Origin: Pararhodobacter aggregans
Lineage (GTDB): Bacteria > Pseudomonadota > Alphaproteobacteria > Rhodobacterales > Rhodobacteraceae
Direction: 5' to 3'
Assembly (NCBI RefSeq): GCF_003075525.1
Contig: NZ_QDDR01000009.1
Location: 62,001 to 126,000 of the forward strand
Length of the DNA: 64,000 bases
Positions 11,757 through 60,150 of this stretch are shown piece after piece (the stretch's first letter is position 1; each line of letters begins with the position of its first letter). The translations under genes were made by a program, and so were the position numbers. Below the pieces are notes generated by a model. The model searched no databases and was not told where the DNA came from. It saw nothing but the letters and a program-made list of their open reading frames with translations.

Positions 11757-11890
11757 GGGACGCGGGGGGCTGCTCGCCCCCCATGAAACGAAAAAGTGCG
11801 GGGGGCTGCTCGCCCCCCGCGCCCCCTCGCCCAAGGGGCCCACGGGCCCCTTGGGGAACCCCGTGCGTATTTCAGACAAGATGATGGGGC
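11757..11890 (+). repeat. Modular 3'-end repeat element, copy D (single-armed)
   Basis: This intergenic block follows dctP. It holds two tandem copies of a GGGGGGC-TGCTC-GCCCCCC hairpin (11764-11782 and 11800-11818), a third hairpin AAGGGGCCC/GGGCCCCTT (11833-11852), then GGAACCCCGTG and an AT-rich tail (GTATTT, AGACAAGATG, ending near 11885). The order of modules matches copy C at 60.1 kb read on its minus strand and the left half of copy B at 57.5 kb, although arm sequences differ. It sits directly downstream of a gene end like the other copies. No T-run follows the hairpins. Confidence 0.75.
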
Positions 11891-36706: not shown

Positions 36707-37154
36707 CCGGACGTCCGGCCTCCGGGAATGCACTGGCGGAGATGCACCAGGCAGAGAGGTGTTTCGCCCTCGTTGCCCGCTGTCGCGGGCGCCTCGGGCG
36801 ACCAGCGGCGCCGCGTTCCGCGGCGCCGAAGAAGGGGGGCCGTCTGCCCCCCTCTTGGCCTGCGGCCAATTCACCCCCCGAGGATATTTGAAGAACGAAG
36901 ATGTGAGTTAAGAAGGCGCTAATCCGCCATCTTCGTTCCTTAAATATCCTCGGGGGTCCGGGGGCAGAAGGCCCCCGGGGCTGCCACAATCGCTGCCCTC
37001 TCCGCGGCGGGAGGCGCGCGGGGTGGGCGGGTGGGAGCGTGCCTCCCGCCGCGGGGCGCGACGCGACGACACCCCTCTGCCCCCGATTGCATAGAAACCG
37101 CAAAGGCGTCACACTCCTCGACAAATCGCGCCGAAACGCGCAGGGAGGACACCA
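36707..37154. other. 448-base intergenic region carrying repeat copy A and the acyl-CoA synthetase leader
   Basis: The region holds the two-armed repeat element (described separately, 36760-37054) and then about 100 bases of lower G+C sequence ending in a GGGAGGAC ribosome site for the acyl-CoA synthetase. No coding frame with a recognisable product is present on either strand. Confidence 0.7.
36760..37054. repeat. Modular 3'-end repeat element, copy A (two-armed, inverted)
   Basis: In order: a GTTTCGCCCTCG block and CGCTGTCGCGGGCGCC/TCGGGCGACC module (36761-36802); hairpins GGCGCCGCG/CGCGGCGCC, GGGGGGC/GCCCCCC and TTGGCC/GGCCAA; the core GAGGATATTT, AGAAC, AAGATG (36880-36903); 24 bases; the same core inverted (36928-36956); a CCGGGGGC/GCCCCCGG hairpin; and a 14-base-pair hairpin CCGCGGCGGGAGGC/GCCTCCCGCCGCGG (37002-37054). 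Module order is shared with copy B at 57.5 kb. Arms differ between copies but stay complementary. Confidence 0.85.
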
Positions 37155-57208: not shown

Positions 57209-57454
57209 ATGAACGACCTCTCGCTCGATACGCTCTGGATGCGCAAGGAACTGGACAGTCCCTGCGTCAAGATCTGCGTGATCCATCCAAAGGCAGGGAT
57301 CTGCGCCGGCTGCTTCCGCACGCTGGACGAGATCGCCGGCTGGTCGGCGATGAGCCCCGAGAACCGCGCCGAGATCCTGGCGCAGCTGCCGGACCGCTCG
57401 ACCCTGCTGAAAAAGCGCCGCGGCGGACGCGAGGGGCGGCTGAACCAGGACTGA
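57209..57454 (+). CDS. DUF1289 family protein
   Basis: An 81-residue small cytoplasmic protein. The motif SPCVKICVIHPKAGICAGCFRTLDEIAGWSAMSPE covers residues 17-52; its four cysteines (CxxxC and CxxC) probably bind iron or zinc. The family is widespread, small and of unknown function. It is followed by repeat copy B, which begins within 5 bases of its stop. Confidence 0.9.
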   Translation: MNDLSLDTLWMRKELDSPCVKICVIHPKAGICAGCFRTLDEIAGWSAMSPENRAEILAQLPDRSTLLKKRRGGREGRLNQD

Positions 57455-57457
57455 GGG

Positions 57458-57744
57458 GTTTCGCCCGCGGTCCCCGCTGTCGCGGGCGCCTCGGGCGACC
57501 GGCAGCGGGGGGCTGCCGCCCCCCGCACCCCCTGCTTCAAGGAGGGTTTTCCACCCTCCTTGAAAATCCTCCCGAGGATATTTGCAGAACAAAGATGGAG
57601 AACAGAGGGCGCTTGACCCTCATCTTTGTTCTTGAAATATCCCGGGGGGTCCGGGGGGCTGGCCCCCCGGGGTCGCCCCAAGCGCCGCCCTCTCCGCGGC
57701 GGGAGGCGCGCGGGGTGGGCGGGCGGGAGCGTGCCTCCCGCCGC
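57458..57744. repeat. Modular 3'-end repeat element, copy B (two-armed, inverted)
   Basis: The element fills the gap between a plus-strand and a minus-strand gene. Modules in order: GTTTCGCCC and the CGCTGTCGCGGGCGCC/TCGGGCGACC block, hairpin GCGGGGGGC/GCCCCCCGC (57505-57526), hairpin TTCAAGGAGGG/CCCTCCTTGAA (57536-57564), core GAGGATATTT, AGAAC, AAGATG (57574-57597), inverted core (57621-57649), CCGGGGGGC/GCCCCCCGG hairpin and a 12-base-pair hairpin CGGCGGGAGGC/GCCTCCCGCCG ending at 57744. Same plan as copy A, with arms that changed together. Confidence 0.85.
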
Positions 57745-58278
57745 TCAGCGGCAGGCGTCCCTAAGGCGCCCCATCAGCTCGGCCAGCTGCGCCCGGTAGC
57801 GCTCGGATTTCAGCCGCCCCTCGGCGTCGAACTCCGTCCCGGCCCGGGCCACCAGCACCTCGGGCCAGGCCAGCGGCTCCACCCTGTGCGGCACCAGCAT
57901 CCAGCGCAGGATCATCTGCGACCGCTCGCCCCCGGCCCGCCCGTCCGCCGCGGTGACGATCGCCACCGGCTTGCCCCTGAGCGGGTTGGGTTTCAGCCGG
58001 CTCAGCCAGTCGAGCGCGTTCTTCACCGCCCCGGGCGGCGCCTTGTTGTATTCGGGGCAGGCGAAGAGCACCGCCTCCGCCCCGGCCACCGCCGCAGCCA
58101 GGGCCGCCACCTCGGCCGGGATCCCCTGCGCTTCCAGATCCTCGTCGAACAGCGGCAGCCTGAGGCTTGCCTCGGCGAATTCGCCATCAAAGGCGCGCGC
58201 CGCCTCCAGCATCAGCTTGCGGTTCAGGCTCTCCGCCCTCAGGGATCCGCACAACCCCAGCAATCTCGGCCCGCTCAT
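57745..58278 (-). CDS. NADPH-dependent FMN reductase
   Basis: A 177-residue flavodoxin-fold reductase. FMN-binding GLCGSLRAESLNRKLMLEAA at residue 6, the family motif CPEYNKAPPGAVKNALDWLSR near 77, and VTAADGRAGGERSQ near 109. Members reduce FMN, azo dyes, quinones or chromate with NADPH. ATG at 58278 was preferred to in-frame codons up to 58365. It converges with the DUF1289 gene across repeat copy B. It diverges from the ThDP enzyme gene. Confidence 0.88.
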   Translation of the reverse strand: MSGPRLLGLCGSLRAESLNRKLMLEAARAFDGEFAEASLRLPLFDEDLEAQGIPAEVAALAAAVAGAEAVLFACPEYNKAPPGAVKNALDWLSRLKPNPLRGKPVAIVTAADGRAGGERSQMILRWMLVPHRVEPLAWPEVLVARAGTEFDAEGRLKSERYRAQLAELMGRLRDACR

Positions 58279-60022: not shown

Positions 60023-60030
60023 CCCGCCCC

Positions 60031-60150
60031 TTCTTTGCGCCTTAAATATCCACGGGGTTTCCAAAGGGGGGCGTGCCCCCCTTTGGCGAGGGGGTTCGGG
60101 GGGCGAGCAGCCCCCCGATCGGTCGCCCGAGGAACGAGGGCGAAACGCCT
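60031..60150 (-). repeat. Modular 3'-end repeat element, copy C (single-armed, on minus strand)
   Basis: Read on the minus strand after the DUF599 stop: CGTTTCGCCCTCGTT then CCTCGGGCGACC (lacking the 17-base middle of copies A and B), hairpin GGGGGGC/GCCCCCC (60098-60116), a 12-base-pair hairpin CCAAAGGGGGGC/GCCCCCCTTTGG (60061-60086), AACCCCGTGGATATTTAAGG and AAAG. It matches copy D module by module, with different but complementary arms. It lies between a plus-strand gene end and a minus-strand gene end. Confidence 0.8.

Follow-up and report, generated by a model that had tools for sequence, protein, structure and literature searches.

Intrastrand triplex motifs are common in bacterial DNA (PMC4666352), and those of E. 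coli known as BoxC, PIT or TM_ECO are the closest known kind to the element considered here. In these motifs a GC-rich purine tract, its Watson-Crick partner and a third tract lie on one strand, at intergenic and dispersed sites, with sequence change around the motifs among relatives and more change there among strains (PMC4666352). The TM_ECO (BoxC) consensus, CCCTCNCCC-GGGNGAGGG-GGGNGAGGG, has nine triads and a class II tract order, and five close inverted pairs of E. coli motifs are made of two different types (PMC4666352). The triplexes of these motifs are stable in vitro, an in vivo footprint lent no support to a stable triplex, and the same account cites an earlier study in which promoter or terminator activity was absent (PMC4666352). 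Purine-motif triplexes, in which A.A-T and T.A-T are both permitted, are stated to be impossible in RNA, and the C-rich strand to prefer acidic conditions (PMC4666352). Two further groups of repeats invite comparison. High-copy extragenic palindromes, present as singles and as inverted doublets of fixed spacing, are the hallmark of REP/BIME/REPIN sequences as portrayed in PMC2817692 and PMC3116915, and the CGTC-tagged palindromic repeats described in PMC3733652, mostly from alphaproteobacteria, have no dedicated transposase and often form dimers of two types.

The element at 57.5 kb of a 64,000-nt stretch of the Pararhodobacter aggregans genome (the whole of the DNA analysed, hereafter the window) resembles each of these in part. 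With the E. coli motifs it shares three tracts on one strand, dispersed intergenic placement, changing surroundings among relatives and inverted pairs of two different types. It differs from TM_ECO, as far as the latter is set out in the source, in being joined to a fixed GGATATTT core, in occurring family-wide at the 3' ends of genes, where its orientation is mildly biased, and in being conserved in place; on the sense strand its tracts run R-Y-H, which is class III (class I on the opposite strand), and its patterns span 5-9 triads. Like REP and CGTC repeats it is a repeated palindrome with singles and doublets, but it has a third tract and exchanges its modules, it is larger and composite with a fixed core, and neither the GTAG head of the former nor the CGTC tag of the latter was noticed by eye. 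The word 'Rhodobacter' is absent from the main text of PMC4666352, a description of this element was not found in the open literature searched, and Rfam matches in the window were two tRNAs only, the best match in 57400-57800 staying below threshold (18.3 bits). We argue that the element is a genuine, family-wide repeat whose three-tract structure shows evidence of constraint. Judged from sequence, it stands at close to an even chance that this mosaic intergenic element would hold an intrastrand triplex and act as a structural boundary at transcript ends.

Anatomy of the element

The 57.5-kb element lies between convergent genes, for a DUF1289 protein ending at 57454 (+) and an FMN reductase ending at 57745 (-), and its parts return in the same order in a second element at 36.8 kb, flanked by two plus-strand genes for an NMT1-like protein and an AMP-binding enzyme (Table 1). 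This common module order had been pointed out in a preliminary description of the locus, and all the modules named there are present at both sites; its remark that the stems are followed by no T-run is also borne out by the sequence of both loci, which offers ATATTT only. Two further elements, at 60.0 and 11.8 kb, are carried by the window, where GAGGATATTT at up to one mismatch occurs five times, a number that 0 of 100 shuffles reach. The element at 11.8 kb is flanked by the probable end of one gene and the probable start of another. Both terminal GGCGGGAGGC hairpins also fit a 5-triad pattern on the minus strand, at 37023-37047 and 57715-57739.

Table 1. Features of the four elements in the 64-kb window
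Feature	Coordinates	Strand	Remarks
Element at 57.5 kb, whole	57458..57744	+	occupies the gap between two facing stop codons
Outer block GTTTCGCCC ... CGGGCGACC	57458..57500	+	imperfect inverted repeat; GTTTCGCCC 57458-57466, CGGGCGACC 57492-57500
Outer hairpin GCGGGGGGC..GCCCCCCGC, then C tract	57505..57532	+	5-triad triplex pattern 57507-57532
Hairpin module B, TTCAAGGAGGGT..ACCCTCCTTGAA	57536..57564	+	
8-triad intrastrand triplex pattern	57539..57573	+	T or A permitted opposite A; purine tract 57539-57546, Watson-Crick tract 57554-57561, third tract ATCCTCCC 57566-57573
Core GGATATTTGCAGAACAAAGATG	57576..57597	+	
Inverted partner core	57621..57642	-	spacer 23 nt
Right-hand hairpin CCGGGGGGCCAGCCCCCCGG with C6 third tract	57644..57670	-	6-triad pattern 57644-57668
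Terminal GGCGGGAGGC..GCCTCCCGCC hairpin	57698..57742	+	identical in the closest relative
Element at 36.8 kb, whole	36761..37050	+	module order as at 57.5 kb
GTTTCGCCC of 36.8-kb copy	36761-36769		
CGGGCGACC of 36.8-kb copy	36795-36803		
Two-hairpin module D	36834..36879	+	G6..C6 hairpin, TTGGCC..GGCCAA hairpin, C6 third tract
Core GGATATTTGAAGAACGAAGATG	36882..36903	+	
Inverted partner core	36928..36949	-	
Right-hand hairpin with C5 third tract	36952..36976	-	5-triad pattern
Terminal GGCGGGAGGC hairpin	37006..37050	+	
Element at 60.0 kb	60030..60116	-	single core 60030-60051 (GCGCAAAGAAG variant); 6-triad pattern 60054-60083; outer 5-triad pattern 60090-60116
Element at 11.8 kb	11800..11883	+	triplex patterns 11800-11826 and 11833-11862, then divergent core GCGTATTTCAGACAAGATG 11865-11883

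Copies, cores and pairs in the genome

Across the 5.08-Mb genome the core pattern GAGGATATTT..AGAAC.AAGATG occurs 93 times, with 0 matches for the reversed control, and a looser form 140 times; a 26-nt pattern from the terminal hairpin is found 23 times at up to three mismatches, 17 of them exact (control 0). The sample in which architecture was studied comprises 93 stretches around core copies together with the window, 900 kb in all, some genome copies falling outside it. A weight matrix recovers 203 cores from this DNA, every one scoring at least 22 bits, against a maximum of -6.5 in a Markov null of equal size. The core leaves positions 8 and 9 free; there is little variation at 10 and 12-13, either purine at 15 and variation at 20, and the others are near-invariant. 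Of 16 copies of an 18-nt piece of the terminal hairpin in the stretches taken, 15 have a core no more than 135 nt away. The 3' half of the core favours words particular to each species, namely GAACRAAGATG and GCGCAAAGAAG in this genome (G000), GAACGAAGATG and GAGCAAAGATG in a second species (G098) and, among the matches listed, GAACAAAGATG and GATCAAAGATG in a third (G298), 11-nt words of this half being common to many copies within each.

The 203 cores resolve into 135 elements, 68 of them head-to-head pairs and 67 singles, with no tail-to-tail pair among them. The spacer between partner cores measures 23 or 24 nt in 60 of the 68 pairs and 22-25 nt in 62. Recognition of this spacer by a protein such as the cell-cycle regulator CtrA is one reading of the pairs: TTAAN7TTAA, which we take to be the full-site consensus of CtrA, lies in 28 of 62 pair spacers (for example L060:4075-4098) where shuffling yields a mean of 0.006, and occurs 34 times in the 900 kb. 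The motif is also expected from a near-palindromic spacer, however, single cores are without such a spacer, the 57.5-kb copy is without the site and the 36.8-kb copy reads TTAAN7CTAA, and we regard a protein-binding site as a very improbable basis for the element.

Most cores have, just upstream, one of a limited set of hairpins. A perfect adjacent stem of at least 6 bp stands at 169 of 201 arms, compared with 27 of 201 after shuffling, and is absent from 32 (two of the 203 arms, whose flanks were cut, were left out), as would follow from the early suggestion that each arm pair stays self-complementary. Paired cores tend to carry two different hairpins, the same module standing on both sides in 1 of 50 pairs where 11.2 are expected and none of 5000 shuffles is as low; this count left out 11 of 61 pairs with an unclassed arm, and heterotypy could stem from a few dispersed composite families instead of avoidance. 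Module D is the commonest module among pairs. Pairing of the free positions between partner cores was considered and rejected: the three positions are identical in 42%, 45% and 64% of cases versus 47%, 31% and 68% after shuffling, the second value (45%) going no higher than the shuffled maximum.

Distribution and conservation in the family

In its exact form the full core is present in 3 of 292 genomes of the order, all of the same genus and one of them the genome studied here, and is thus confined to the genus among the genomes sampled; a slightly looser pattern is found in 5 of 18 genomes of the genus. The 5' half, CCCCGRGGATATTT, reaches much further, occurring in 148 of 295 genomes of the family where the control gives one match in all, with 151 copies in this genome and at most 58 in any other. 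Elsewhere in the class it appears in 4 of 285 genomes, as a single copy each, the control doing so in 2 of 285 with a single match each. When named genomes were scanned for a hairpin joined to the core, at least 118 stretches were returned and, among the matches listed (80 titles), these come from Rhodobacteraceae genera or related labels and a few bins named 'Alphaproteobacteria' or 'Proteobacteria'. The suggestion that the two loci may belong to a repeat family of the Rhodobacterales had been made from two copies; searches of the whole genome and of relatives now place many more beside them, at gene ends, in a dispersed and structured family.

Elements are conserved in place. Ten loci of the closest relative, G300, were fetched through the core, and eight of them align in place to elements of this genome (two of the eight being both cores of one element). 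In 400 kb of G300 (~90% identity) both flanks are present for 22 of the 135 elements, and the core is kept in 20 of these orthologous segments, four of the 22 being neighbours about 1 kb apart whose segments overlap. Among the 20 are the 57.5- and 36.8-kb elements, the scan retaining one of the two cores of the latter, and the 60.0-kb copy, which is kept at the same site; the terminal hairpin has not changed at 57.5 kb and has hardly changed at 36.8 kb. Modules around the cores differ, as read from alignments at part of the sites: the hairpin type is swapped together with both arms, and hairpins are gained or lost. Since cores stay at their sites while hairpins are swapped, positions are inherited and modules exchanged. 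In the alignments read, the drift of paired arms that the preliminary description saw between its two loci is true of some paired point changes, whereas most of the difference, between loci as between orthologues, consists in the exchange of whole hairpin modules. A second core class, near GGCGTATTTTNGGCAAAGTGA, replaces the first in the G300 orthologues of loci L063, L069 and L136, and only two or three GGCGTATTTTNGGCAAAGTGA-like cores occur in the 900 kb of this genome.

Such inheritance bears on whether the element is mobile. Spread of a non-autonomous, REPIN- or MITE-like unit by some transposase would suit the high copy number, the inverted pairs of fixed spacing and the genome-specific core words. 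None of the 22 orthologous segments looks empty, however, 20 having the core and two another core class, and a search limited to Y1/RAYT transposases (PF01797), as expected of REP and REPIN sequences, found 0 matches in this genome and was positive in 5 of 14 control genomes. Mobility of this kind is in our judgement quite improbable.

Placement at gene ends

Elements are underrepresented between divergent genes and overrepresented between convergent ones. With genes called by a hexamer script, some of whose calls will be wrong, 59 of the 135 elements lie between convergent genes, 67 between tandem and 7 between divergent ones, with 2 at stretch edges, in DNA whose gaps of at least 100 bp (element-bearing gaps included) number 79 convergent, 144 tandem and 109 divergent; in a first count of 132 elements, 4 fell inside a called gene. 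The 118 stretches from relatives, with 126 matches, give 37 convergent, 6 divergent and 10 edge positions, and 6 of the 126 inside a called gene. As to orientation, single cores in tandem gene pairs point along the gene direction 30 times and against it 11 times, and the tandem matches in relatives 44 times with and 29 times against. These counts together suggest that the element belongs behind genes and is not strictly oriented in the manner of a terminator.

An intrinsic terminator that employs AUAUUU in place of a U-run, bidirectional where cores are paired head to head, would nonetheless gain from the convergent enrichment and divergent depletion, and from the 53 of 67 single cores that the 5'-side gene points at, where hairpin and then ATATTT follow in the sense direction. 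It would have to work in the wrong direction at 11 of 41 tandem single cores here and at 29 of 73 tandem matches, single or paired, in relatives, and at nine single cores the ATG is, or lies in frame behind, the next start, leaving no room for a promoter. We hold this reading to be improbable, and the moderate orientation bias agrees with the earlier opinion that the element is not a plain terminator.

The nine single cores just mentioned divide into five whose final ATG is the called start of the next gene and four in which it lies in frame behind the start, and in a tenth the called start falls within the core, out of frame (examples of start-overlapping cores are L120:3970-3991, L101:3957-3978 and L062:4004-4025). 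The free positions read GG in 5 of these 10 cores versus 9 of the 57 others (P 0.03), and GG there gives GGAGAACAAAGATG, a Shine-Dalgarno-like start.

A third tract behind the hairpin

The most informative feature of the element is one that the preliminary description missed, a third tract behind the hairpin. In a typical unit a G run is followed by a complementary C run, with which it makes the hairpin, then by a second C run and finally by the core. Lengths of these runs are coupled. In 90% of 124 distinct matches in relatives the two C runs have the same length, against a shuffled mean of 48% and maximum of 60%, and 101 of the 124 have all three runs of one length (4 to 7); the stem also covaries past its fixed part, the third position doing so in 64% versus 29% after shuffling (maximum 39%, n=112). 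Within this genome the C runs match in length in 62 of the 65 TCTG-loop units (shuffled mean 55%, maximum 74%) and in 81% of the 59 others (39% when shuffled, at most 61%), and in the two-hairpin type all three runs are equal in 45 of 48. Copies that share a module are, in all such counts, not independent of one another. Lineage cannot explain the agreement of C runs inside a single genome. A crude run-length count over 201 arms gave a weak signal, 40% against 32% shuffled with a maximum of 40%, having taken the longest nearby run and so mixed modules, and the length of the foot showed no correlation with that of the linker (rho 0.04). Complementarity of the arms, too, exceeds that of shuffled sets, in the stem and the run-length tests alike.

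The order of bases in the third tract speaks to its partner. Were the second C run an alternative Watson-Crick partner of the G run, a direct repeat of the first would be expected, and were it a third strand, a mirror repeat; because all-C tracts are uninformative on order, modules with an off-centre A in the purine arm were used. Of 20 distinct modules of this kind, 14 have the third tract interrupted where a mirror repeat would place it, 5 where a direct repeat would and 1 at neither place; the 14 include two neighbouring sites of one locus and two variants of module B. In two of the five direct cases (L373, L380) the third tract exceeds the purine tract by one base, so that both readings fit; the remaining three belong to the CACG-loop type and have their A near the loop (GGGGGGAG- or GGGGAG-CACG), contrary to the mirror rule. 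Six of the roughly twenty modules came from a search for CCTCCCG third tracts, which should bias neither way. Row by row, over 24 rows, the mirror order fits better in 13 and the direct in 2, with 9 ties, and a looser count in this genome, in which symmetric parts of tracts are counted twice, gives 23 mirror and 13 direct tails. The mirror relation was not found to extend to the neighbouring base, the base before the G run failing to predict its complement before the third tract. The interrupting base of the third tract is T or A.

A search for a purine tract, its complement and a mirror tract, with loops of up to 8 nt where the published rule asks for stems of 6-15 nt and loops of 1-6 nt, finds 207 patterns in the 900 kb versus 5 in a Markov null; density over the whole genome is lower, as the 900 kb were chosen around cores. 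Within 250 nt of a core lie 187 of the 207, and 101 adjoin one in the same orientation; of the 48 patterns of at least seven triads, 45 adjoin a core. Stems of six or more make up 127 of the 207, and the remaining 80 have only five triads. Module D exceeds the published loop limit, with a hairpin in its second loop, before the third tract. The 118 stretches from relatives hold 74 patterns (null 2). Away from the fetch sites there are 21, and in 11 of these TATTT comes within the next 14 nt.

Other origins of the third tract were considered and rejected. A switch or a sliding terminator hairpin, in which the G arm would find an alternative Watson-Crick partner in the distal C tract, needs a direct repeat, and the asymmetric modules are mostly mirror; copying by template switching would presumably not be expected to give mirror order; and pairing of the third tract with the partner arm sits poorly with 66 pairs in which the two third tracts are equal in 17%, compared with 39% after shuffling, so that they are seemingly not kept for pairing.

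The weightiest of the alternatives dispenses with a triplex. In it the elements would be plain REP- or BIME-like hairpin arrays whose RNA hairpins guard mRNA from 3'-5' exonucleases, the third tract being either a portion of the palindrome that an inverted pair makes or a side effect of module duplication. Intergenic and 3'-associated placement, the weak orientation preference, the mosaic exchange of modules and the constant distance within pairs are all in keeping with this, but equal run lengths and mirror-placed interruptions are not predicted by it, and the rarity of equal third tracts in partners tells against the palindrome. We consider hairpin arrays of this sort unlikely, though clearly less so than a terminator.

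Three-stranded folds as possible transcript boundaries

The working unit of the structure we propose is a GC-rich hairpin. Its G-rich 5' arm has two matches, one in the C-rich 3' arm of the hairpin, in Watson-Crick fashion, and one in the C-rich tract just upstream of the CCCCGAGGATATTT core. Equal lengths and mirror symmetry fit an intrastrand triple helix, which on the sense strand might form in the pyrimidine motif (C.G-C, T.A-T) and on the opposite strand, as DNA, in the purine motif (G.G-C with A.A-T or T.A-T). An interrupting T or A would both suit the purine motif of the opposite strand, and T alone would suit the sense strand. As purine-motif triplexes are absent in RNA, at least in the account of PMC4666352, the three-stranded reading concerns DNA. 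Units stand, singly or as head-to-head pairs, usually with two different hairpins, downstream of genes and mainly between convergent ones; when DNA is unwound the fold may form and hinder incoming polymerases, and the hairpins may shield the RNA 3' end. The sequences themselves show the number of copies, their anatomy and placement, conservation in place, exchange of modules, coupled lengths and more mirror than direct order; that the triplex forms in cells and serves as a boundary is inferred, as the reading with the best support. A broader proposition we put forward tentatively, as possible and somewhat doubtful, namely that large sets of three-stranded DNA folds are maintained at gene ends in the Rhodobacteraceae and, together with the core, would mark and enforce transcript boundaries.

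The element may provide a 3'-end signal for bacteria that have no T-run at their gene ends, as at the loci seen here. The family-wide set, with third tracts that covary across genera beside a fixed core, offers natural variants for the question of whether triplexes form in vivo. If the triplex reading is true, the coevolution of tract length and of mirror-placed A and T would argue, from evolution, that living bacteria form intrastrand triplexes and that these are of consequence to them.
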